Positions 18,673-37,683 of a stretch of 64,000 nucleotides of DNA are shown here, one piece after another (positions within the stretch are counted from its first letter, which is position 1; every line of letters starts with the position of its first letter). The notes under the pieces were generated by a model. That model searched no databases. It saw nothing but the letters and a program-made list of their open reading frames with translations, and had not been told where the DNA came from. This stretch comes from Paenibacillus sp. 1781tsa1. Its GTDB lineage: Bacteria > Bacillota > Bacilli > Paenibacillales > Paenibacillaceae. The position numbers and the translations under genes are program-made. Where the stretch lies: positions 6,758,001 through 6,822,000 of the forward strand of contig NZ_JAMYWY010000001.1 in assembly GCF_024159265.1 (NCBI RefSeq), given 5' to 3'.

Positions 18673-20109
18673 TTAATTGGCTACATGTATTGATTTATCT
18701 CCAATAACTTCTTCTTCCGACTGCCAGCACTCCACTTCACCCGGAATATGAATCCGGTCACGCGTAAAGACGGGATCACGTCCTTCAGCCTTCTGTTTCT
18801 TGTAGTCCTTCAATGCTTCAAAGGTGACCTTGGACAGCAGCAAGATGGCAATCAGGTTAACCACCACCATCAGCCCCATGAACAGGTCAGCCAAATCCCA
18901 CACTAGCTGAACTTTGGCAACTGCACCAAACACCACCATCGCGATGACGCAAATGCGGTATACCCACAGCCAAACTTTGTTGGATTTGATAAACTCAATG
19001 TTGGTTTCCCCGTAGTAATAATTTCCGATTAGTGTACTGAAGGCAAACAGGAACACCATAACCGCCAGGAATCCCGATGCCCATGAACCAATATGGACAC
19101 TTAATGCAGCCTGAGTTAACTCAATGCCACCCAGACTGGAGCCTTTGTACACTCCTGATAGCAAAATAATCATGGCTGTGCTTGTACATATCACCAACGT
19201 ATCTGTCAGCACGCCAAACGCCTGAATAAGTCCCTGTTTCACCGGATGTGTTGTATCCGCCGTTGCAGCAGCATTCGGGGCACTACCCATGCCCGCCTCA
19301 TTGGAGAACAATCCGCGTTTTACACCGTTCATCAGTGCAGCGCCCAACGTTCCACCAGCTACCTGTTCAATGCCGAAGGCATTTTTGACGATCAACGCAA
19401 TCATGGCCGGAAGCTGGGTAATGTTCGCCAGCACCACAAAAGCCGCCACCCCAATGTACAATACGGCCAGTACAACCACGATGTATTCCGATGCTTTTGC
19501 GATACGTTTGACACCGCCCATAATAATTCCTGCAAATACCACGGCCATAATGATCCCTACCGTTAACCGATCCGTACCAAATGAGTTTTGGAATGCAACG
19601 GTAATCGTGTTCGATTGCACCGCATTAAAGACCAAACCGAATGAAAGCGTAATGAGAATGGCGAATAAAATTCCCATCCAGCGCTTGCCTAGCCCACGCT
19701 CCATATAATACGCCGGACCCCCGCGGAATCCGCCCTTATCCTTCACTTTATAGATCTGAGCCAGCGTGCTCTCCACAAAACTGGAGGCAGAACCAATAAT
19801 CGCAATAACCCACATCCAGAATACAGCTCCTGGTCCTCCCAGTGCGATGGCCAGTGCAATACCCGTAATATTCCCTGTACCTACACGGGCCGCCATACTG
19901 ATACAGAACGCCTGAAAAGGTGAAATTTTGCCTGGTTCCTTGCTTTTCGGCTCTAGAAGCACCTTCACCATATCTCCAATCATGCGGAATTGCATGAATC
20001 GGGTCTTGGTGGTGAAGTATATCCCACATACTACCAATAGTATAATTAACACTTTGGACCATAGAAAATCATTGAAAATGACGACAATATCTTGTATTGT
20101 TTGCTCCAT
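18673..20109 (-). CDS. Alanine/glycine:cation symporter (AGCS) family, possibly glutamine transporter
   Basis: 478 residues from ATG 20109, which has AAGGGG 8 nt upstream; the frame is open to 20181 but lacks a start signal. About ten or eleven hydrophobic helices; family motifs include AARVGTGNITGIALAIALGGPGA in the sodium-site region, GGPAYYMERGLGKRW, and GLFSNEAGMGSAPNAAATA. AGCS transporters take up alanine, glycine or glutamine with Na+ at the plasma membrane. It is divergent from a GlnL-type regulator. In B. subtilis GlnK-GlnL controls glnT, which is of this same family, so glutamine is a plausible substrate. Confidence 0.9.
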   Translation of the reverse strand: MEQTIQDIVVIFNDFLWSKVLIILLVVCGIYFTTKTRFMQFRMIGDMVKVLLEPKSKEPGKISPFQAFCISMAARVGTGNITGIALAIALGGPGAVFWMWVIAIIGSASSFVESTLAQIYKVKDKGGFRGGPAYYMERGLGKRWMGILFAILITLSFGLVFNAVQSNTITVAFQNSFGTDRLTVGIIMAVVFAGIIMGGVKRIAKASEYIVVVLAVLYIGVAAFVVLANITQLPAMIALIVKNAFGIEQVAGGTLGAALMNGVKRGLFSNEAGMGSAPNAAATADTTHPVKQGLIQAFGVLTDTLVICTSTAMIILLSGVYKGSSLGGIELTQAALSVHIGSWASGFLAVMVFLFAFSTLIGNYYYGETNIEFIKSNKVWLWVYRICVIAMVVFGAVAKVQLVWDLADLFMGLMVVVNLIAILLLSKVTFEALKDYKKQKAEGRDPVFTRDRIHIPGEVECWQSEEEVIGDKSIHVAN

Positions 20110-20299
20110 TGGTATGCCCCTTTTTATGGTGTATTTCAAGTACAGAGATGGGTCACGTGAAAAGTTTGTACCATTCTGCACAACACTTGCCCAGACTTCG
20201 GGATGTTACTTATACTACAAGGGCATCTACGAAAATCGACAAATACCTACATGCAATTTCTAGATTTATTTTAAAAATGGGCTTTGATCGCCCAATCAT

Positions 20300-20325
20300 T
20301 GTCATTTAACCTGACATGTCAGGTT
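20300..20325. promoter_or_regulatory. GlnR/TnrA-like box overlapping a perfect 18-bp palindrome
   Basis: TGTCATTTAACCTGACA (20300-20316) matches the TGTNA-N7-TNACA pattern bound by GlnR/TnrA. The perfect palindrome AACCTGACATGTCAGGTT (20308-20325) overlaps it. Both lie between the symporter and glnL divergent starts. The box pattern has eight fixed bases, so about one chance match is expected in a window this size; position is the main support. Confidence 0.5.
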
Positions 20326-20438
20326 CTATGCAAGAAGGAAAAGAACGATTACACTGGAACGAGAGTTCATGGCGGAGTTAACCGCCTTTACCATAGATTT
20401 ATCAATCACACCATTCACAGAGAAAGGGAATGACTGAC

Positions 20439-21368
20439 ATGCGTTATTTTATCGTGGATGATGATCCTGGCGTTCGTTCCATGTTGATGGATATTATTGA
20501 AGATGAAGGGCTTGGCGATATTGCCGGGGAAGCTGAGGACGGAGCACATATTCACGCGGAACTGTTGGAACTGCATAAGGTGGATGTTCTTCTGATTGAT
20601 CTGTTGATGCCACAACGAGACGGGATTCAGACCGTACGGGCGCTTGAAGGAAGGTTCGAGGGTAAGATCGTCATGATCTCCCAGATCGAGTCGAAAAATA
20701 TGATCGGAGAAGCCTATTCGCTAGGCGTTGAATATTATATTACGAAGCCCATTAACCGATTGGAGATTCTATCTGTTCTGCGTCTGGTCAGCGAAAGGCT
20801 TCGGATGCAGCAATCCATCGCAGATATTCAGCGGACATTGCAGGGACTGTCCGGTTTGCACCCTAACGAGCGAACTGCGGCTCCGGTTCCCGACAAAACA
20901 ATTACGACAGCAGGACATTTCCTGCTGTCCGAGATGGGCATGATCGGCGAAGCGGGCAGCAGGGATCTGCTGGACATGCTGGAATATCTGGAGCAGGTAG
21001 AGACCGATGAGCATAAGTTGTCTCCCTATACGTTCCCGTCCCTCAAAGACATCTTTCAGAACGTAGCGATACGCAAGCTGGGAGAGAACGCCTCACTCGC
21101 AGAGATTAACAAGGAGATCAAGGCATCGGAACAACGTGTTCGCAGAGCCATCTTCCAGACACTGAGCCATGTGGTGTCTCTGGGATTAACGGATTATACA
21201 CATCCCAAGTTCGAGAACTATGCATCCAAATTTTTTGATTTCACCGAAATCCGCAAAAAAATGCTGGAACTGCAAAACAATGTGGAGCCTTCCTTGTCCC
21301 AGACACGCATTAATACGAAAAAGTTCGTACAGGTCCTATATCTGGAAGCCAAACGGTTGCTGCATTAG
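20439..21368 (+). CDS. glnL: GlnL-type (YcbB) response regulator
   Basis: 309 residues. The receiver begins MRYFIVDDD with D54 (LLIDLLMPQRDG), S in MISQIES and K in YITKPIN. After a linker, residues of about 165-305 form the YcbB output domain (LREDIFQNVA-like helices, KASEQRVRRAIFQTLSHVV, FFDFTEIRKKM). ATG 20439 is chosen over 20430 because AAAGGG ends 10 nt before it, while it abuts 20430. In B. subtilis GlnL is activated by GlnK and drives glutaminase and glutamine transport. No kinase gene is adjacent here. Confidence 0.88.
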   Translation: MRYFIVDDDPGVRSMLMDIIEDEGLGDIAGEAEDGAHIHAELLELHKVDVLLIDLLMPQRDGIQTVRALEGRFEGKIVMISQIESKNMIGEAYSLGVEYYITKPINRLEILSVLRLVSERLRMQQSIADIQRTLQGLSGLHPNERTAAPVPDKTITTAGHFLLSEMGMIGEAGSRDLLDMLEYLEQVETDEHKLSPYTFPSLKDIFQNVAIRKLGENASLAEINKEIKASEQRVRRAIFQTLSHVVSLGLTDYTHPKFENYASKFFDFTEIRKKMLELQNNVEPSLSQTRINTKKFVQVLYLEAKRLLH

Positions 21369-26254: not shown

Positions 26255-27331
26255 CTACCTGGACGATGCCGGATAGATGGACACCGCTCTGTTATCCGGC
26301 AGTTCGCCACCCATGGAGACACACCACTGTTGATAGATGCGATACGCTGCACCACTCTCCAGCAACCCCTGACAAGTGTATATGCCCTCTTCGATGGAAT
26401 TGACACGCCCCGCTGCGTACAAGCGGAATCCCCCATTTAACAAAACCTGATTCACAAAAGCGATATGACCATCACCACTTAGAACACTTTCCGCCACTTC
26501 AAGCTGCTTCGCAGCCGTCCAGACCAGTTCCGGCACAGGCATATCCAGTTCATAGGCTGCAGGATCAACCAGTTCCAGCTTCATATCACCGTCTTCCACG
26601 GTGTATACGCGGGTTGGCCGATCAATATACAGATCCTCAGAACCTTCCATCCCCTGTACCACATAAGCACGGCGATAGTTAAACCGGGTGAGCAGCTTCG
26701 CAATCCGATCCAAAAAGGTATTATGAAACACACCGAACACCAGATACGGTGAATGGTTATAATCAATGAGTTTCTCTGCTGTGTTAAACACCGTGCGGAA
26801 TCCTAGCTCTTCCCGTAAAGGACGAAGCTTGCGAAGAGGCTCACACCACTCCTCGGAGGATACGTACATGACACCTGAACGGAGCGCAGCGCCTCGGGCA
26901 TCTTCTCGATCCATCTTACCGGTATCTATTCCTGCTTCCTTCAACAGTACCGACAGCGTAACGCCCCACTTGGGCGGTAAAGGATCACTCCCGTGCAACG
27001 TCACCGGCAACCCGGCTGCCGCGAGTAGAAACGCAACCGGAAACGTGGCCATGAACGACTTCGTCCGCCCGTCATAAGGACCAGCACAGTCCAATCCGTC
27101 CTGAAATACGGAGAAACGTTCCGCACTGTTACGGCATGCATGAACAAAGGCTTCCAGTTCCTCGACGTTTTCCATTTTCATTCGTTCAGCCATGAGAAAG
27201 GCAGCCGTCTGGGCAGGGGAAACCTCCTGTTTCAGGATTTTCTCTGCAACGGTCAGTGCCTCTGTATAATTCAGATCACGCGAGCCTCGTTTCCCACGTC
27301 CGACCTCTCGGAGTATCTGAGACATATCCAT
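26255..27331 (-). CDS. Anthranilate phosphoribosyltransferase-like (TrpD2/YbiB-type) protein
   Basis: 358 residues from ATG 27331, preceded by GAAGGAGG. The N-terminal helical GT3_N domain (residues of about 5-70) is followed by an alpha/beta class III phosphoribosyltransferase fold. The usual TrpD PRPP loop GTGGD is replaced by GPYDGR, and KHGNR by LHGSDPLPPKWG, as in TrpD2/YbiB proteins that are not tryptophan enzymes. No trp genes are nearby. The gene follows the ANTAR regulator by 18 bp on the same strand, so a role in nitrite/nitrate control or nucleic-acid binding is possible but unproven. Confidence 0.8.
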   Translation of the reverse strand: MDMSQILREVGRGKRGSRDLNYTEALTVAEKILKQEVSPAQTAAFLMAERMKMENVEELEAFVHACRNSAERFSVFQDGLDCAGPYDGRTKSFMATFPVAFLLAAAGLPVTLHGSDPLPPKWGVTLSVLLKEAGIDTGKMDREDARGAALRSGVMYVSSEEWCEPLRKLRPLREELGFRTVFNTAEKLIDYNHSPYLVFGVFHNTFLDRIAKLLTRFNYRRAYVVQGMEGSEDLYIDRPTRVYTVEDGDMKLELVDPAAYELDMPVPELVWTAAKQLEVAESVLSGDGHIAFVNQVLLNGGFRLYAAGRVNSIEEGIYTCQGLLESGAAYRIYQQWCVSMGGELPDNRAVSIYPASSR

Positions 27332-27349
27332 GGAGAATCCTCCTTCCAA

Positions 27350-27943
27350 TTAAGACTGGAGCAGTTGATGCGCCTTCACAATCGCTGTGGCTACATCGAC
27401 CATCCGTTTGCGTTCATCCATCGCTCTCTTGCGTAACAGGTCATAGGCTTCAGCCTCGGAGATCTGCTTCAGATCACTAAGGATGGCCTTCGCCATATCA
27501 ATCCACTTCCGATCCTCAAGCCTGGATTGCAACTGCTTCCGTTCCTGCTCCCACTGTTTGCGTTCCATGTAGCGCCGTGCTGCAAAGTGAAGCGTCCAGT
27601 GGATCTCGGGCCCGGTCATGGAAGGTGTAAGTATGCCATCAAATGAAGTTTCGACCTCGCAGGATTCTGCAGAGGAAGAGGCCGTATCTGGCGCGCACCA
27701 CCAGAGCAGCGGGGAATCCGACTTCCCCTTTCCCAGGCAGTTCACCCAGTACTCCACATCAGCCAGCGACAGATGCAAGATGGACGCTTCCGCAGCACGA
27801 GCCAGCTTCACCGCTTCCATTTCACTGCCTGCCACCTGTACATGGTACCCGTTCGCTCCCAGCAGCCTCTCCGGTGTCAGAGGGATTGCATCGAACGAAT
27901 CAGCTATCGTTGATTGTATACGGATGACCAATAAAGATCGCAT
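27350..27943 (-). CDS. ANTAR-domain RNA-binding antiterminator
   Basis: 197 residues. Residues 1-115 resemble a receiver in outline but lack the acidic pair and the phosphoacceptor Asp (LHLSLADVEYWV), so it is a pseudo-receiver. A coiled-coil linker (MERKQWEQERKQLQSRLEDR) leads to the ANTAR domain at about 135-190 (WIDMAKAILSDLKQISEAEA, then AYDLLRKRAMDERKRM), which binds twin hairpins in leader RNA. It is divergent from nirBDC-cobA, whose leader carries such hairpins. NasT is the closest known role. Since phosphorylation seems impossible, another signal must control it. Confidence 0.9.
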   Translation of the reverse strand: MRSLLVIRIQSTIADSFDAIPLTPERLLGANGYHVQVAGSEMEAVKLARAAEASILHLSLADVEYWVNCLGKGKSDSPLLWWCAPDTASSSAESCEVETSFDGILTPSMTGPEIHWTLHFAARRYMERKQWEQERKQLQSRLEDRKWIDMAKAILSDLKQISEAEAYDLLRKRAMDERKRMVDVATAIVKAHQLLQS

Positions 27944-28253
27944 GATGGAGCAATCCCTCCCTAATTACGTATAATTAGAATCGCATTATTTAATACATCA
28001 ATACATGAAAGCGCTACATATGTTATATTACCTGACAAAAAAACAGATCAATCTGATTTTATAACTGATTTCGAGATAATAAATACAAAAATCATGACGG
28101 AGTGTCCTAGTAGCCAAAAAGAGTGAAACACTAATCATGACACATTTTCTATGCTTTTTGTAGTTCCCGGCACACTATTTCCCACTAAAACATTCATTTT
28201 CATGAATATATACCCTTAAAACCTCTTCGATCATTCGTGTTCCAATAAACTCA

Positions 28254-28270
28254 TGTAAACATAATTAACT
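28254..28270. promoter_or_regulatory. Second, weaker GlnR/TnrA-like site
   Basis: TGTAA-N7-TAACT, one base off the TGTNA-N7-TNACA pattern, 39 bp upstream of the perfect site. Confidence 0.3.
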
Positions 28271-28292: not shown

Positions 28293-28309
28293 TGTTAACT
28301 ATATTGACA
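28293..28309. promoter_or_regulatory. GlnR/TnrA-type box at the nir promoter
   Basis: TGTTAACTATATTGACA fits TGTNA-N7-TNACA exactly. Its right half is the -35 hexamer of the nir promoter, so binding would compete with RNA polymerase, as for a repressor such as GlnR. Confidence 0.55.
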
Positions 28310-28332
28310 TGGTTAGATCGATATTTTATAGT
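28304..28332 (+). promoter_or_regulatory. nirB promoter (sigma-A type)
   Basis: TTGACA (28304-28309), 17-nt spacer, TATAGT (28327-28332). Transcription would start near 28339, giving a leader of about 195 nt that contains the ANTAR hairpins and terminator. Confidence 0.8.
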
Positions 28333-28365
28333 TAAGCCATAACAACTCCATATTTGAATCGCTCA

Positions 28366-28410
28366 CAGTTACAACGGCGTAGCTGGTTGAAACGGCAATG
28401 AAGCCTGTTT
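28366..28410 (+). ncRNA. ANTAR twin-hairpin leader element
   Basis: P1: 28366-28385, a 7-bp stem (CAGTTAC / GTAGCTG, one G-U) with hexaloop AACGGC. After 4 nt, P2: 28390-28410, a 7-bp stem (AAACGGC / GCC-GTTT with one bulged U) with hexaloop AATGAA. Both loops have A at position 1 and G at position 4, the rule for ANTAR targets. The 3' arm of P2 is also the 5' arm of the terminator at 28402-28474, so the two structures exclude each other. Confidence 0.85.
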
Positions 28411-28474
28411 TGCAATCTCGGAGCAAGGGATGCGTATGTATTTGCGCAGTCCTCCGAGGCATAACAGGCTTTTT
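28402..28474 (+). terminator. Conditional terminator in the nirB leader
   Basis: AGCCTGTT (28402-28409) pairs with AACAGGCT (28463-28470), an inner CTCGGAG / CTCCGAG stem adds stability, and TTTTT follows. It lies between the promoter and nirB and is expected to stop transcription unless P2 is held by the ANTAR protein. Confidence 0.85.
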
Positions 28475-28534
28475 CGATTTTAGAGACAAGATTTCGAGGC
28501 AGTTTGCAAAATGGACCTAAGGGGGCTAATCATA

Positions 28535-30976
28535 ATGAGTACAACGAAAAAGCTGGTATTGGTCGGTAATGGCATGGCGGGAATTCGCACAATCGAACAT
28601 ATCCTCAAGCTTGCTCCGCACGCTTATGAAATTACAGTTTTCGGTGCAGAGCCGCATCCCAACTACAACCGGATCATGCTCTCCTCTGTATTGGCTGGCG
28701 GAACATCCATCGAAGATATCGTCATCAACGAGTGGAGCTGGTACGAAGAAAACGGCATTCAGGTATACCCGGGTGACCCGGTCGTTCAGATCAATACCGA
28801 GCGCAAGGAAGTTGTATCTCAAAATGGCGTACGCGCAAGTTATGATGAGCTGATTATGGCAACCGGATCACAAGCGTTCATCCTGCCACTTCCCGGCGCA
28901 AACAAGAAAGGTGTTATCGGTTTCCGTGATATCAAAGATTGTGAGACCATGATGGAAGCATCACAAAAGTATCGCAAAGCCGCCGTCATTGGAGGTGGAT
29001 TGCTAGGACTTGAAGCAGCACGTGGGCTGCTCAATCTGGGCATGGACGTCACAGTCATCCATATTAATGGCCATCTGATGGACCGGAATCTGGATCTCCC
29101 GGCAGGCCTGATGCTTCAGCGGGAGCTTGAAGAGCAAGGCATGAAGTTCCTTTTGAATAAACATACCGAAGAAATCACAGGTAAGCATCGAGTGAAAGCC
29201 ATTCGTTTCACCGATCAAACGGTACTTGAAGCCGATCTGGTTGTCATGGCTGTCGGAATTCGTCCTCAGGTTGAACTTGCTCGCAATACCGGCCTCGATG
29301 TGAATCGTGGTGTCATCATAGATGATTATATGCATACCAGCATTCCTGGCATCTCTGCCGTCGGCGAATGTGCTGAACACCGCGGTATTGCCTACGGACT
29401 GGTTGCTCCATTATATGAACAAGGTATGGTGCTCGCGAAACGCCTGGCTGGTGCAGCCACCGAAGGATATGCAGGATCGGTAACTTCCACCAAACTGAAG
29501 GTATCCAGTGTTGACGTATTCTCTGCCGGACAATTCAAAGACGCTGCAGATACGCGCAGCATTCGCATTCAGGATGATGTCGATGGTGTGTACAAAAAGA
29601 TGGTGATTAAGGATGGGCAGCTCATTGGCGCTGTATTGTTCGGGGATACCACAGATGGCGCATCGCTGTTTTCTCTCATTAAGAGTGGCGAGAACATCCG
29701 CGGTCGGGAGAAAGAAATTTTGCTCGGCGTACCTTCCGGTAGTTCAGGCTCTGGTCCATCTGTCGCAGAACGTATGGCGAGTATGACGGATGACGAGATC
29801 GTCTGTGGTTGTAACGGTGTTACCAAAGCCTCCATCGGAGATGCCGTTCTGAATAAAGGCTGTAACACTCTCGGTGCAATCAAGTCCTGCACCAAAGCTT
29901 CCGCTTCTTGTGGTGGATGCAAACCGATTATCGAAAACCTGCTCACGTATTATGCCGGTGATAATGTAGGTGAACAGACCAAAGAAGGCATCTGTGGCTG
30001 CACATCCTATGATCGGGATGAGATTGTTGCACAAATCAAGGAAATGGGACTCAAAAGCGTGAAGGAAGTGATGAACGTTCTCGGTTGGAATGAGTCGGAA
30101 GGTTGCTCCAAGTGTCGTCCGTCCCTGAATTATTATCTCGGTATGATCTGGCCGGCTGAATACAGAGATGAGCGTGTATCCAAATTCACCAATGAACGTT
30201 ATCACGCCAACATCCAGAAGGACGGTACCTATTCCGTTATTCCACGGATCTATGGTGGTGTCACTTCCCCGGCGGAATTGATCAAGATTGCAACAGTCGC
30301 GGAGAAATATGATGTACCGATGGTGAAGTTTACAGGCGGACAACGGCTCGATCTGCTCGGAGTACAGAAAGAGAACCTTCCGAAGATCTGGGAAGAGCTC
30401 GATATGCCTTCCGGTTTCGGTTATGGCAAGGCGCTGCGTACGGTGAAGACTTGTGTAGGTAACACATTCTGCCGATTCGGAACACAGGACTCCATCGAGA
30501 TGGGGATTCGACTGGAGAAAAAACTCGACAAAATGGTTGCTCCGGCAAAAGTGAAACTTGCTGTATCTGGATGTCCGCGGAACTGTGCTGAAGCAACCAT
30601 CAAGGATCTGGGTGTTGTCGCCATCGATGGTGCATGGGAGATTCATGTTGGTGGTAATGCCGGAGTTAAAGTTCGCACAGCCGAGTTGCTCTGTACGGTG
30701 AAAACCGATGCGGAAGTGGAAGAGTGGACCTACGCTTACCTGCAATATTATAGAGAGAACGCAAAATGGAATGAGAGAACAGCGGCATGGATTGAACGGG
30801 TAGGTCTGGATCATGTGAAGGAAGCATTGGCGGATCGGGATGTACGTCTCGCTCTAATTGAACGCCTGGAAGTTACGCTGGGTCACACGGTTGATCCTTG
30901 GAAAGAAATCATTGAAGACGAGAAATTGCGTAAAAACTTCACCCCACTGTCCGGTGCCGAGCCGGTAACTCACTAG
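28535..30976 (+). CDS. nirB: Assimilatory nitrite reductase [NAD(P)H] large subunit
   Basis: 813 residues, normal length. FAD site VLVGNGMAG at the N-terminus; NAD(P) site VIGGGLLGLEAARGL near 155; two BFD-like [2Fe-2S] regions (CGCNGVTKASIG near 422 with SCGGC, and a second CGC near 485 with CSKCRP); sulfite/nitrite reductase half-domains; siroheme-[4Fe-4S] ligands in CVGNTFC near 638 and CPRNC near 677. It reduces nitrite to ammonium with NirD in the cytoplasm. ATG 28535 has AAGGGGG 10 nt upstream; the frame is open 8 codons further. First gene of nirB-nirD-nirC-cobA, under ANTAR leader control. Confidence 0.97.
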   Translation: MSTTKKLVLVGNGMAGIRTIEHILKLAPHAYEITVFGAEPHPNYNRIMLSSVLAGGTSIEDIVINEWSWYEENGIQVYPGDPVVQINTERKEVVSQNGVRASYDELIMATGSQAFILPLPGANKKGVIGFRDIKDCETMMEASQKYRKAAVIGGGLLGLEAARGLLNLGMDVTVIHINGHLMDRNLDLPAGLMLQRELEEQGMKFLLNKHTEEITGKHRVKAIRFTDQTVLEADLVVMAVGIRPQVELARNTGLDVNRGVIIDDYMHTSIPGISAVGECAEHRGIAYGLVAPLYEQGMVLAKRLAGAATEGYAGSVTSTKLKVSSVDVFSAGQFKDAADTRSIRIQDDVDGVYKKMVIKDGQLIGAVLFGDTTDGASLFSLIKSGENIRGREKEILLGVPSGSSGSGPSVAERMASMTDDEIVCGCNGVTKASIGDAVLNKGCNTLGAIKSCTKASASCGGCKPIIENLLTYYAGDNVGEQTKEGICGCTSYDRDEIVAQIKEMGLKSVKEVMNVLGWNESEGCSKCRPSLNYYLGMIWPAEYRDERVSKFTNERYHANIQKDGTYSVIPRIYGGVTSPAELIKIATVAEKYDVPMVKFTGGQRLDLLGVQKENLPKIWEELDMPSGFGYGKALRTVKTCVGNTFCRFGTQDSIEMGIRLEKKLDKMVAPAKVKLAVSGCPRNCAEATIKDLGVVAIDGAWEIHVGGNAGVKVRTAELLCTVKTDAEVEEWTYAYLQYYRENAKWNERTAAWIERVGLDHVKEALADRDVRLALIERLEVTLGHTVDPWKEIIEDEKLRKNFTPLSGAEPVTH

Positions 30977-30992: not shown

Positions 30993-31310
30993 ATGAACAA
31001 ATTCCGGATTGGACACCTGGCAGATATTGATGAAAAGGGTGCACGGACCTTCCTGATACAGGATACCGAAATTGCAGTCTTCAAACTGAGCGACGGGAGT
31101 CTGCACGCCGTCGAGAATCGCTGCCCTCACAAGGGCGGCAAGCTGTCGGAAGGCATGGTATGCGGGACAGCCGTTCATTGTCCTTTGCATGATTGGAAGA
31201 TCGATCTGCGCAACGGTAAGGTACATGAGCCGGATAAGGGCTGCCTGAACACCTACAAAACAGAAGTAGACGGCAAAAGTGGAGAAATCTATATCACAAT
31301 TGCGGGTTAA
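30993..31310 (+). CDS. nirD: Nitrite reductase small subunit (Rieske-type)
   Basis: 105 residues. The Rieske [2Fe-2S] ligands are visible as CPHKGG (C-x-H) and CPLHDW (C-x2-H). It passes electrons within the NirBD complex. It follows nirB by 16 bp with GGAGG before its ATG and is in the same operon. Confidence 0.95.
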   Translation: MNKFRIGHLADIDEKGARTFLIQDTEIAVFKLSDGSLHAVENRCPHKGGKLSEGMVCGTAVHCPLHDWKIDLRNGKVHEPDKGCLNTYKTEVDGKSGEIYITIAG

Positions 31311-31347: not shown

Positions 31348-32229
31348 ATGGATTTTGTTAAACCTGCAGAAGTGCTGCAATCGATGGTCGAAGCTGGTGA
31401 GAGCAAAGCCAGAATGAATCGGGTACAGATGCTAATTCGCGGTTTTCTGGCAGGGGCTATCCTTGCTTTTGCAACCACAATGGCATATACCGCTGTAACT
31501 CAAACTTCCGTTGGTTTGGCAGGTGCACTGATATTCCCGGCGGGATTCGTCATTATTATTCTGTTGGGCCTTGAATTGGTGACAGGAAACTTTGCGATGC
31601 TTCCACTCGCAATGATGAAACGCAGAATCACACTGATGGATATGCTCCGAAATTATTTTTGGGTGATCACAGGTCATCTGCTTGGATGTGCATTCTATGC
31701 TCTGTTATACGGCCTGACCCTTACGAAGATGGGTACGGATATGAGCAACCCACTCATTCAAACGCTGATTCAGACCAGTGAAGCTAAAACATTAGGATAT
31801 CAGCATTTGGGCGGAGCAGGCATGGTTCTGGTGATCATCAAGGCCATTCTATGTAACTGGATGGTCACACTCGGGGCAGTGTTGGCGATGACATCCACAT
31901 CAACCCTGGGTAAAATCGTAGCGATGTGGCTGCCTATTATGATATTTTTCGCCCAAGGTTTTGAACACGCTGTGGTGAACATGTTTGTCATTCCGGCAGG
32001 CATGATGCTCGGTGCACAGGTCAGTGTCGCTGATTGGTGGCTGTGGAATCAGATCCCTGTGTTGGTGGGTAACCTCATTGGCGGAGCTGTATTTACAGGC
32101 CTTGGTCTATATGCTGCCCATCACTGGGGAAATCCTGTCCAACGCTCATCCAAACTGGCAACCATTCAGGGTGGTCGTTCAGGATTGGCAAGTTCCGATG
32201 TGGCATCGAAATTGGGGACACGATCATGA
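31348..32229 (+). CDS. nirC: Formate/nitrite transporter family, probable nitrite channel
   Basis: 293 residues with six hydrophobic helices of the FNT fold. Visible signatures are GALIFPAGFVIIILLGLELVTGNFA near residue 50-75 and FAQGFEHAVVNMFVIPAGM, which carries the central pore His (EHAVVNM). FNT pentamers pass formate, nitrite or hydrosulfide. Here the operon context points to nitrite. It lies 37 bp after nirD (AAGGAGG upstream) and overlaps cobA by 4 nt (ATGA). Confidence 0.93.
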   Translation: MDFVKPAEVLQSMVEAGESKARMNRVQMLIRGFLAGAILAFATTMAYTAVTQTSVGLAGALIFPAGFVIIILLGLELVTGNFAMLPLAMMKRRITLMDMLRNYFWVITGHLLGCAFYALLYGLTLTKMGTDMSNPLIQTLIQTSEAKTLGYQHLGGAGMVLVIIKAILCNWMVTLGAVLAMTSTSTLGKIVAMWLPIMIFFAQGFEHAVVNMFVIPAGMMLGAQVSVADWWLWNQIPVLVGNLIGGAVFTGLGLYAAHHWGNPVQRSSKLATIQGGRSGLASSDVASKLGTRS

Positions 32230-32996
32230 GTCGGGGCTTGGTTAGTATCGTTGGTGCTGGTCCTGGAGATCCGGATCTGATTACGGTAAAAGCCCTGAAA
32301 CGTATTCAGTCCGCAGATGTCATTATGTATGATCGGCTTGTGAATGATCAATTGCTCGCTGAGGCTCGCGTCGGAGCACTCCGCATCTATTGCGGCAAGG
32401 CTCCAGGCCTTCACTCCATGAGTCAGGAGATGATCGGACGGATGCTGGCTGCACATGCAGCGGAAGGCAAACAAGTCGTACGACTCAAGGGTGGCGATCC
32501 GTTTATCTTTGGCCGTGGTGGTGAAGAAGCGCTTGTGCTGGCGGAAGCAGGCATTCCATATGAAATCATTCCTGGTATCACTTCGGCTGTAGGCACATCC
32601 GCTTCCTCCCTTATTCCGTTAACTCATCGCGGGATTGCTTCATCCTTCGCATGTGTCACTGGAACCGGTAGCGACGGAAATGTTTCATACGTTCGCTGGG
32701 ACCTGCTTGCCCATAGCGTGGATACACTGGTCATCTATATGGGCATTAGCCAACTCCCCCAGATTCAACATGAATTGCTTCACCATGGGAAAAGTGGACA
32801 CACCCCTGCGGCTTTAATCGAAAGGGGAACCACTTCGGAGGAACGAATTATTACCGGCACACTTGCCGAACTCCATTCCCTCGCCTTGTCACATCAAGTG
32901 AATAATCCCGCATTAATCATGATCGGAGAGTCGGTCCTGATCCGCGAACAGCTGCTTCAGATGCAACAGGCCGCGAACGCATCTATGACGGGTTAA
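32226..32996 (+). CDS. cobA: Uroporphyrinogen-III C-methyltransferase
   Basis: 256 residues, one-domain SUMT. Motifs: VGAGPGDPDLITVKAL at the N-terminus, VRLKGGDPFIFGRGGEE, and PGITSAVGTSASSLIPLTHRG. It methylates uroporphyrinogen III at C-2 and C-7 to make precorrin-2, which leads to siroheme, the cofactor of NirB. It is the last operon gene, translationally coupled to nirC. In B. subtilis the equivalent is nasF. No dehydrogenase/ferrochelatase gene follows here. Confidence 0.95.
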   Translation: MSRGLVSIVGAGPGDPDLITVKALKRIQSADVIMYDRLVNDQLLAEARVGALRIYCGKAPGLHSMSQEMIGRMLAAHAAEGKQVVRLKGGDPFIFGRGGEEALVLAEAGIPYEIIPGITSAVGTSASSLIPLTHRGIASSFACVTGTGSDGNVSYVRWDLLAHSVDTLVIYMGISQLPQIQHELLHHGKSGHTPAALIERGTTSEERIITGTLAELHSLALSHQVNNPALIMIGESVLIREQLLQMQQAANASMTG

Positions 32997-35644: not shown

Positions 35645-37003
35645 CTACGACAACCGTACGTAAAATGTTGCGCCCTCTCCGACCACACTTCGGGCGTAAA
35701 TCTCTCCTTTGTGCTGATCCACAATGGACCGAGCAATCGCCAGCCCCAGACCGTGCCCGCCATGTGTGCGGGCTCTGGACGAATCCGTACGATAGAATCG
35801 ATCGAAGATCCGATCCAGATGTTCCGGTGCAATGCCTTCACCTGTGTTGGATACGGCCAGCATGACATCATTATTCTGTTTCTGGAGCGTAACGTTCACC
35901 GACCCTTTGGGACCGGAATACTTCACCGCATTATCGAGCAGGATCAGAATGACCTGTTTGATCTGTTCACTGTTTCCATGAACCGTAAGATTCGGCTCAA
36001 TGTTGTAATCAAGGGAGATGTTTTTCTCAAAAATAACGGCTTCCATTGGCAAAATAATACTTTCTACCGCATCGCTCATATTAAACTTCGCATGAATCAT
36101 CGTTGAGCGTGAGTCGTCCATCTGTGTCAGATAGAGCAGATCATTCGTAAGTCCGGTCATGCGCTCGGTTTCCGACTTGATATAGTGAAGCCACTTCGCC
36201 TGGTTCGCTATGGTATCCTCCTGATTCGCCAGCAGCACGTCCGCATTGGTATTAATGATCGCCAGCGGTGTCTTCAACTCATGTGAAGCATCTCCAATGA
36301 ATTGTTTTTGCTTCTCAAACGCTTCTCTAACAGGTGCAATAGAGCGATTCGCAAAATAACGGCTCAGGAAGTAGATCACAATCAACATAACCAGTCCGAC
36401 AACAGCAAAGGTATAGATCAGATTCGTTAGAATGCCCTGTTGTGCGGTCACATCAATAAATACGATCATATGCCCATCACCGCTCGGATCGACCACATAG
36501 GCCCAGTCCGTTCCATCCAGCGCAAATTGTCCAGTCTGCCGTTCCGAATCACCAACTTTATTCTGGTCAACCTTTTGCAACGCCTCGGTGTAGAAGGTTT
36601 CGTCCATATCAAAACGGGAATGGGTATCCGTGATTTTCCACTGGCTATCCGTCTTGATCATGAACGAAATGGAACGTGCCGGTGGGGAGTTGGGATCACC
36701 TCCCGGGCCTCCATTATCACCACCCATGGCATCGGAGGGAAACGAATCTGAACCGGAACCTGAAACACCTGTACTAGAACCTGATCCAGAGCCCGTCCCC
36801 ATCCCCCCACCTTCCACGCGCGGCATCTTGGATGAATTATAAGGACTATGATAGAAATCAGACACCTTGTACAGCTCCATATTTGTCTCACGTTGCACAT
36901 TCTGATACGTAATTGTATAGATCGTCGCAAATGCCACCAGCATCATAACGGAGATGGACACCAGATTCACGATCAGGAATCGATTCCGGAGTTTCTTGAA
37001 CAT
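35645..37003 (-). CDS. Sensor histidine kinase of the VTC-locus two-component system
   Basis: 452 residues. Two membrane helices (about 10-30 and 192-215) enclose an extracellular domain containing a Gly/Ser-rich low-complexity run (GGGMGTGSGSGSSTGVSGSG). HisKA has DASHELKTPLAII; HATPase has LDNAVKYS, NTGEGIAPEHL and GHGLGLAIA. It overlaps the response-regulator stop by 1 nt, so the pair is cotranslated. No clear HAMP domain. The signal is unknown. Confidence 0.92.
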   Translation of the reverse strand: MFKKLRNRFLIVNLVSISVMMLVAFATIYTITYQNVQRETNMELYKVSDFYHSPYNSSKMPRVEGGGMGTGSGSGSSTGVSGSGSDSFPSDAMGGDNGGPGGDPNSPPARSISFMIKTDSQWKITDTHSRFDMDETFYTEALQKVDQNKVGDSERQTGQFALDGTDWAYVVDPSGDGHMIVFIDVTAQQGILTNLIYTFAVVGLVMLIVIYFLSRYFANRSIAPVREAFEKQKQFIGDASHELKTPLAIINTNADVLLANQEDTIANQAKWLHYIKSETERMTGLTNDLLYLTQMDDSRSTMIHAKFNMSDAVESIILPMEAVIFEKNISLDYNIEPNLTVHGNSEQIKQVILILLDNAVKYSGPKGSVNVTLQKQNNDVMLAVSNTGEGIAPEHLDRIFDRFYRTDSSRARTHGGHGLGLAIARSIVDQHKGEIYARSVVGEGATFYVRLS

Positions 37004-37683
37004 CAGGATGTCACCTCAAGTACATAGCCCACACCTCGAATCGTGTTAATGCGGACAGCCGAGTTCAGGAACGTTAATTTTTTGCGCAAAAACGAGATGT
37101 ACACCTCCACATTGTTATACTCCACTTCCGAATCGAATCCCCATAACTTCTCAATAATCTGCTCTTTGGAGGTAATCGCCTGTTTGCGCGTAATCAAGAG
37201 CTCCAGTAGTTCATTCTCCTTCAGATTCAACTTGATTTCCTTCCCCTGTACGCTCAGCTTCAACTGAGTTGTGTTCAGCTCCATGTCACCGAATTTCAGT
37301 CCGTCCTCCGGAACAACTTCGCCCTTCCGCCTTAAGGCTGCTCGAATCCGGGCCAGCAATTCCTCTGTGGCGAAGGGCTTGGCGATATAATCATCGGCAC
37401 CATAATCGAGGCCTGTGACTTTGTCCGATAGTTCACCTTTCGCAGTAAGCAGAATGACTGGCGTATGATTGCCTTCACTGCGAAGTTTCTTCAGGACGGT
37501 GATCCCGTCCATCTCCGGCATCATGATGTCGAGCAGTAACAGGTCGTAGATGCCGCTCTGCGCATAATCGAGGCCTGATCTGCCGTCGTGGACCATGTCC
37601 ACGGAGTAGTTGTTTTTTTTCAAAATCTGCGATACTGCCTCTGCCAAATGAACCTCATCTTCCGCAATTAATATTCTCATCAT
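37003..37683 (-). CDS. OmpR/PhoB-family response regulator
   Basis: 226 residues. Receiver: MRILIAEDE, phosphoacceptor D52 in LLLLDIMMPEMDG, T in LLTAKG, K in YIAKPF. The C-terminal winged helix (about 130-224) includes NLKENELLELLI, VEVYISFLRKKL and IRGVGYVL. AGAGG is 9 nt before the first ATG. Its gene is divergent from the VTC operon, and twin 19-bp sites lie symmetrically between them. Confidence 0.93.
   Translation of the reverse strand: MMRILIAEDEVHLAEAVSQILKKNNYSVDMVHDGRSGLDYAQSGIYDLLLLDIMMPEMDGITVLKKLRSEGNHTPVILLTAKGELSDKVTGLDYGADDYIAKPFATEELLARIRAALRRKGEVVPEDGLKFGDMELNTTQLKLSVQGKEIKLNLKENELLELLITRKQAITSKEQIIEKLWGFDSEVEYNNVEVYISFLRKKLTFLNSAVRINTIRGVGYVLEVTS

Follow-up and report, generated by a model that had tools for sequence, protein, structure and literature searches.

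A probable ANTAR-type antiterminator in the nirB leader of Paenibacillus, one of three similar leaders with GlnR-type boxes at their promoters

The leader of the nitrite reductase operon in Paenibacillus sp. 1781tsa1 is very probably a canonical ANTAR-type transcription antiterminator, one of three leaders that a single ANTAR protein would serve behind promoters probably gated by GlnR. We analyzed 64,000 nucleotides of this genome (contig NZ_JAMYWY010000001.1, positions 6,758,001 to 6,822,000 of the forward strand; hereafter the window, whose numbering is used throughout). An initial annotation had read the nirB leader as an antitermination switch worked by the product of the divergent gene. 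The predictions of this reading that can be computed hold and support it: A1 and G4 of the loops are conserved, the stems covary, a terminator overlaps the second hairpin, and leader and protein co-occur. The annotation proved incomplete rather than wrong, the additions being three leaders instead of one, a GlnR-type box at the promoter and the question of the sensor. Antiterminators of this kind are known, and the Paenibacillus nirB leader is a well-supported case within a proposed three-operon, GlnR-gated regulon.

The leader precedes four genes on the forward strand. These are nirB, encoding the large subunit of nitrite reductase (28535-30976, ATG at 28535; TIGR02374, 1020 bits), nirD, encoding the small subunit (30993-31310; TIGR02378, 85.1 bits against a cut-off of 74.65), a formate/nitrite transporter gene that we call nirC by its context (31348-32229; PF01226, 1.1e-64) and cobA, encoding the uroporphyrinogen-III C-methyltransferase of siroheme synthesis (32226-32996; TIGR01469, above cut-off). 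The divergent gene on the reverse strand (27350-27943) encodes a protein of 197 residues that does match the Pfam ANTAR family (5e-18), as annotated. Directly 3' of it on the same strand lies a TrpD2/AnPRT-like gene (26255-27349; Glycos_transf_3, 4.6e-26). For comparison, we took the best 80 loci of 150 relatives from an alignment scan of genome contigs with the ANTAR protein, comprising 71 labelled Paenibacillus (metagenome-assembled genomes included), five Cohnella, three Saccharibacillus and one Neobacillus. A divergent nirB match is found at 79 of the 80 loci, and a TrpD2-like match 3' of the ANTAR gene at 78, two of these being fragments. One locus of P. hemerocallicola (L075:9200-9870) has no nirB or nirD match and keeps the ANTAR leader before a truncated nirC-like gene and cobA.

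The consensus promoter proposed ahead of nirB is present as TTGACA-N17-TATAGT (28304-28332, forward strand; -35 at 28304-28309, -10 at 28327-28332), matching the consensus at 11 of 12 positions, with a similar promoter in relatives. Promoter-like sites between 27900 and 28600 are no commoner than expected (3 versus 3.7), so this one is notable solely through its conservation. Downstream on the same strand follow two hairpins, placed as annotated. P1 (28366-28385; CAGTTAC-AACGGC-GTAGCTG) has 7 bp and a hexaloop at 28373-28378 with A1 and G4; after a linker of 4 nt (GTTG, 28386-28389), P2, the antiterminator hairpin (28390-28410; AAACGGC-AATGAA-GCC(T)GTTT), also has 7 bp and a hexaloop, at 28397-28402, again with A1 and G4. 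Its 3' arm contains a bulged U at 28406 that was absent from the initial description. The same arm doubles as the 5' arm of an intrinsic terminator (28403-28474), in which 28403-28409 (GCCTGTT) pairs with 28463-28469 (AACAGGC) around an inner helix CTCGGA/TCCGAG and ahead of a T5 tail at 28470-28474. A simple terminator scan did not return this terminator among its matches because its loop limit is 8 bases. Target RNAs of ANTAR proteins are defined by two stems of at least 3 bp with A1/G4 hexaloops, an intrinsic terminator overlapping the 3' arm of P2 and an ANTAR protein in the same genome; the nirB leader has both RNA features, and one such protein was found.

Predicted folding is consistent with a switch. 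The RNA from 28360 to 28480 has a z score of -4.79, with none of 200 shuffles equally stable. A transcript ending just 3' of P2 is predicted to fold into P1 and P2 (-14.6 kcal/mol), and for the full leader the terminator form is predicted at -47.8 kcal/mol versus -39.6 kcal/mol when P2 is forced. The predicted order fits the expectation that the antiterminator forms first and the terminator is the default. By itself the motif has only moderate rarity: shuffling the dinucleotides of 28333-28534 produced a pair of A1/G4 hairpins with an overlapping terminator in 5 of 2000 cases, and a loose rule applied to both strands of the whole window finds eight combinations, of which the nirB leader has the most stable terminator fold. 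An Rfam search of the region at a permissive threshold gave chance matches only (three, best E 6.1). It is the comparative data, not rarity, that make the leader convincing.

The relatives share this anatomy. A script passes 77 of the 80 loci when it asks for a pair of hairpins with A1/G4 hexaloops plus a terminator that can fold and shares the 3' arm of P2; a rule demanding an exact complement for the terminator took 35, and the folding test was used instead. The three failures are a missing leader (L082), a weak T-run (L105) and a mismatch in P1 (L107). L082 and L031 come from one genome, Paenibacillus phocaensis mt24 (G104), in which the ANTAR gene is open but nothing is left of P1, P2, the terminator or the beginning of nirB, possibly by natural deletion or assembly error. 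An earlier, overlapping set of 30 genomes has the exact P2 GGCAATGRAGCC in 25, variant loops that keep A1 and G4 in four, and this same missing leader in the last.

We aligned 60 distinct leaders from 76 loci (L060, whose P2 the script had misplaced, left out) together with the window (61 sequences). No sequence departs from A1, A2 and G4 in either loop, or from the GGC/GCC pairs of P2. The three outer pairs of P2 and five of the seven pairs of P1 change on both sides, so that 8 of the 14 pairs carry changes on both sides while 93.9% of alignment cells remain paired. Such both-side changes fill 84 cells versus 20.5 in shuffles, and none of 500 shuffles reached as many. When the structure was slid along the alignment, pairing fell to 29-46%; these controls weigh more than the shuffles because shuffles leave relatedness in place.

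The leader pattern also follows the protein. Among 148 genomes of the family, 99 encode an ANTAR homologue of full or nearly full length (best E <= 1.5e-30), 18 have weaker matches (8e-10 to 6e-7) and 31 have none. Pattern sites occur in 98 of the 99 genomes with a homologue, in 0 of the 18 and in 4 of the 31 (G060, G041, G023 and G092; 4/49 for the last two groups combined), with totals of 190, 0 and 5 sites versus 27, 1 and 3 for the reversed pattern. The single exception among the 99 is G104, with its missing nirB leader. By manual reading, 97 of the 99 have a site next to the ANTAR gene; in G033, which has the protein, the sole site lies on another contig and looks like chance, as does the site in G041, a genome without a full-length homologue, where P1 is only 2 bp. 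A covariance model scored separately gives hits in 95 of the 148 genomes at E 0.01. Both pattern and model were built from these very leaders, and the genomes share ancestry, so the counts are partly circular and offer support rather than an independent test. Within the genus of the window, three sites occur in each of the 14 homologue-bearing genomes, two in G060 and none in G107. In G060 no ANTAR domain was found, and both of its nas leaders are kept (L221 on G060:C5, L220 on G060:C1); its nirB is apparently of a different type with another promoter, so that the two leaders look orphaned and would be predicted to be stuck off. Second ANTAR-domain proteins were seen in two relatives (L219, G115:C1:408403-408558; L214, G088:C1:2689112-2689270). 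Genomes of group g6 (for example G098 and G122) have a distant ANTAR protein, matched in its C-terminal domain only, and lack the leader pattern; its RNA targets may obey other rules.

The genome of the window itself contains three such leaders. We built a covariance model, R1, from the nirB-type leaders and scored it on this genome, where it recovers the nirB leader (E 4.8e-13) and two weak places, one of them the leader of a nasA-like gene (E 1.8) and the other L114 (E 2.1); it missed a third leader, before a nasB-like gene. The nasA leader was recognised by reading; the nasB leader emerged when the opposite strand was read and from a pattern search. Over the 7.08 Mb of the genome, this search returns exactly three sites, at nirB, nasA-like and nasB-like genes, and none with the reversed pattern. 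The two nas leaders lie back to back on opposite strands of one intergenic region (C1:1012419-1012789; L170:7420-7790). One precedes a nitrate-transporter-like MFS gene (nasA-like), and the other a nasB-like gene, behind which a nasC-like molybdopterin enzyme is encoded; these names rest on sequence reading and context, and for the large enzyme also on Pfam PF00384. All three leaders have A1 and G4 in both loops, a terminator formed from the 3' arm of P2 and a GlnR-type box across the -35. In the free 5' RNA of the nasB leader, P2 is predicted to have a loop of 4 nt instead of a hexaloop, and P1 of the nasA leader has an internal mismatch, which a base change mends in the relative L196. Across relatives, the elements that we read sit before nirB, nasA-like, nasB/nasC-like and moeA-like genes. 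We propose that one ANTAR protein serving three leaders constitutes a nitrate-assimilation regulon of three operons.

The promoters suggest a second layer of control. TGTNAN7TNACA is the consensus of GlnR and TnrA (PMC9948412), and by sequence match the nirB promoter carries this operator exactly, as TGTTAACTATATTGACA (28293-28309, forward strand), overlapping the -35. The ANTAR gene is preceded by a further exact box, TGTTATATTACCTGACA (28021-28037, forward strand), and the close relatives L032-L050 likewise have an exact box there. A degenerate box with one mismatch, TGTAAACATAATTAACT (28254-28270, forward strand), lies about 50 nt upstream of the nirB -35, with a one-mismatch box at -49 to -51 also in L032-L054. 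At the 77 loci, the box overlapping the -35 is exact in 47, has one mismatch in 28 and has 3 and 5 mismatches in the other two (L081 and L101), where exact boxes stand slightly farther upstream. In the 160 nt upstream of P1, these loci contain 90 exact boxes versus 1.05 in shuffles. Some elements of relatives (for example L144, L146-L149 and L187) have no exact box in the 110 nt upstream. The whole window has four exact matches where 1.05 are expected, two of them between nirB and the ANTAR gene. Another of the window's exact boxes (20300-20316) lies between two divergent genes, which we take to be, from sequence resemblance, an AgcS-like amino-acid:sodium symporter (18673-20181) and a GlnL-like response regulator (20430-21368). 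In B. subtilis, alsT is repressed by GlnR (PMC9948412).

Published work on P. polymyxa WLY78 reports binding of GlnR in vivo under nitrogen limitation at the nasA, nasD1 and nasD2EF promoters, with GCGTAAGGAATGTTGACAT as the nasD2 site (PMC9948412). This site is one base off the -35 box of L088 and L102. The word ANTAR is absent from the main text of that article. With a GlnR/TnrA-type box across the -35 of all three promoters, nir/nas expression probably depends jointly on nitrogen shortage, through GlnR, and on the input to the ANTAR protein, presumably nitrate or nitrite, the direction of GlnR control at these promoters likewise being presumed.

The ANTAR domain of the protein (residues 137-189) scores 65.1 bits against a cut-off of 27.3 and was found once in the genome. 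An AlphaFold2 model from 54 sequences (pLDDT 86, pTM 0.67) has a receiver-like alpha/beta N domain, a long helix and the ANTAR helices. Its best PDB matches are EutV bound to RNA (6ww6), Rv1626 and AmiR, with TM-scores that, taken over the whole chain, are a modest 0.43-0.51. For NasR, the residues required to bind RNA have been identified (PMC7496416), and R340, K347 and R366 of NasR correspond to R145, K152 and R171, invariant in an alignment of 54 proteins hand-chosen from the loci, when numbered with an offset of 27 between chain and NasR numbering that we worked out by hand. W362 becomes Tyr167, K345 Met150 and N373 Arg178, and EutV likewise has Arg at this last position. As judged from the alignment, the RNA-binding residues of NasR thus appear largely kept. 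The N domain appears to lack the usual phosphorylation residues: at the phospho-Asp position, assigned like the Lys position from predicted strands instead of structural superposition, the 54 proteins have His (33), Asp (7), Asn (4), Gln (4) or others (6), so that 47, the protein of the window among them, have no Asp there. In the same domain, the end of the fourth strand has an invariant Trp81 and a Cys83 shared by 53 of the 54 proteins; Cys95 is found in 48, the other six not covering it, and L068, outside this alignment, has Trp in place of Cys95. Among the weaker fold matches (rank 40, E 7e-3) is 5u8m, a redox sensor of streptococci that descends from a response regulator.

Leader anatomy, conservation and covariation, co-occurrence with the protein, the three leaders and the GlnR-type boxes are, at the level of sequence, consistent with the following circuit. 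In the default state, RNA polymerase that initiates at the promoter (28304-28332) would make the P1-P2 RNA, which would refold into the terminator (28403-28474) and halt transcription before nirB. We infer that an active dimer of the ANTAR protein would grip the A1/G4 loops of P1 and P2 and hold P2, keeping 28403-28409 from the terminator, so that transcription would read through into nirB-nirD-nirC-cobA. The same protein would act on the leaders of the nasA-like transporter and the divergent nasB/nasC-like nitrate reductase. GlnR would report the nitrogen state at initiation and the ANTAR protein would report nitrate or nitrite, its presumed signal, at elongation, forming an AND gate.

Two parts of this circuit have rivals, the first concerning the RNA. 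The nirB leader might be a plain attenuator or terminator with incidental hexaloops, something else, such as the speed of transcription or another RNA-binding protein, deciding how much is read through. A similar motif does emerge in a few shuffles (5/2000), the loose rule has seven further hits elsewhere in the window, and G060 keeps two nas leaders in a genome where no ANTAR domain was found. Incidental hexaloops would nevertheless sit poorly with invariant A1, A2 and G4 in both loops of 61 sequences, compensatory changes in the P1 stem, sites that follow the ANTAR gene (98/99 versus 4/49 genomes) and the same rules common to three leaders in one genome. We regard this explanation as very improbable.

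The second concerns how the signal enters the ANTAR protein. A NIT domain is absent from the protein, for which only ANTAR was found among Pfam matches; a genome search for PF08376 gave 0 matches, but so did the controls. The best fold match, EutV with RNA, and the receiver-like N domain would suit a phosphorylation-driven response regulator, and a kinase-regulator gene pair does lie 7-10 kb off (35645-37683), though it has its own regulator. No kinase gene adjoins the ANTAR gene, however, no receiver family is among the Pfam matches listed for the 54 proteins, and besides His at the assigned Asp position in 33 of them, the assigned Lys position holds Thr or Ser in 41. We therefore judged phosphorylation unlikely as the input, to the point of giving it hardly any weight. 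If the TrpD2-like protein were a co-regulator, relaying the signal or binding to the leader RNA, its place beside the ANTAR gene at nearly every locus would be accounted for. Yet L048 and L049 have no match and L057 and L068 only fragments, and none stands beside eight more distant homologues (L156-L163), although element and terminator persist at several of these loci. We set it aside as a required partner, since several loci with an intact switch have lost it or have only a broken copy; it is seemingly a dispensable accessory of the locus, and a role in signalling is improbable. An unlinked NasS-like or AmiC-like binding protein might instead sequester the ANTAR protein as NasS does NasT, a reading favored by the match of the model to AmiR, which was solved in complex with AmiC, and by the known nitrate system NasS-NasT, in which no sensing domain is recognised in the ANTAR protein (PMC3795266). 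Against it, no such gene was seen at the locus, and in the genome, where a NasS-like partner was sought through PF13379 only, all four PF13379 proteins begin like lipoproteins. Of these, L164 has ATPase- and permease-like frames beside it, and L165 and L166 have permease-like frames, the fourth protein being in L167; the four look like transporter lipoproteins, and we consider a binding-protein partner unlikely. We put forward, tentatively and as a possibility we would not yet call probable, that the receiver-derived domain senses nitrate, nitrite or redox/NO directly, with a pocket around Trp81 and Cys83 (with Cys95), and drives the GlnR-gated three-operon regulon without NIT domain, NasS partner or kinase. 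The 5u8m fold match (region of model residues 79-96) and the near-invariant Cys83 give a hint of redox or NO input.

Nitrate assimilation in Paenibacillus thereby gains an explicit, testable circuit with two layers of control, which suggests that studies of GlnR at these promoters may capture just part of it. The sensor question also becomes testable, namely how the signal reaches an ANTAR protein that is receiver-like but has no NIT domain, known NasS or usual phosphorylation residues; direct sensing, if true, would give ANTAR systems a third mode of nitrogen-oxide sensing. The ANTAR mechanism and its link to nitrogen metabolism were published in 2012, in a genome survey whose targets include nitrite reductase and nitrate and nitrite transporters (PMC3369931). 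The word Paenibacillus is absent from the main text of this survey, and, judged by title among the articles listed, we found none on Paenibacillus with ANTAR, NasT or nitrate antitermination.

The proposed regulon resembles several known systems, each in part. The GlnR-controlled nasD2EF and nasA/nasD1 of P. polymyxa WLY78 are the same kind of gene sets (PMC9948412). In NasS-NasT of Paracoccus, Azotobacter and Bradyrhizobium, an ANTAR protein without NIT domain likewise controls nitrate genes; unlike there, no NasS-like cytosolic partner was found in Paenibacillus, at the locus or through PF13379 in the genome. EutV and the eutP leader of Enterococcus, also a Firmicute, provide the best solved fold match and share the RNA rules, but EutV responds to phosphorylation, whereas the Paenibacillus protein has neither the usual residues nor a neighboring kinase. 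AmiR of the AmiR-AmiC pair in Pseudomonas combines a receiver-like domain with an ANTAR domain and is phosphorylation-independent; Paenibacillus differs in having no AmiC-like neighbor and in serving a nitrate/nitrite pathway, not amides. NasR and the nasF leader of Klebsiella share with the Paenibacillus system an ANTAR protein, a dual A1/G4 hexaloop RNA, an overlapping terminator, a nitrate assimilation target and general nitrogen control at the promoter. Compared with NasR, the Paenibacillus protein lacks the NIT domain, and its leaders are spread over three separate operons with a GlnR-type box at the promoter.
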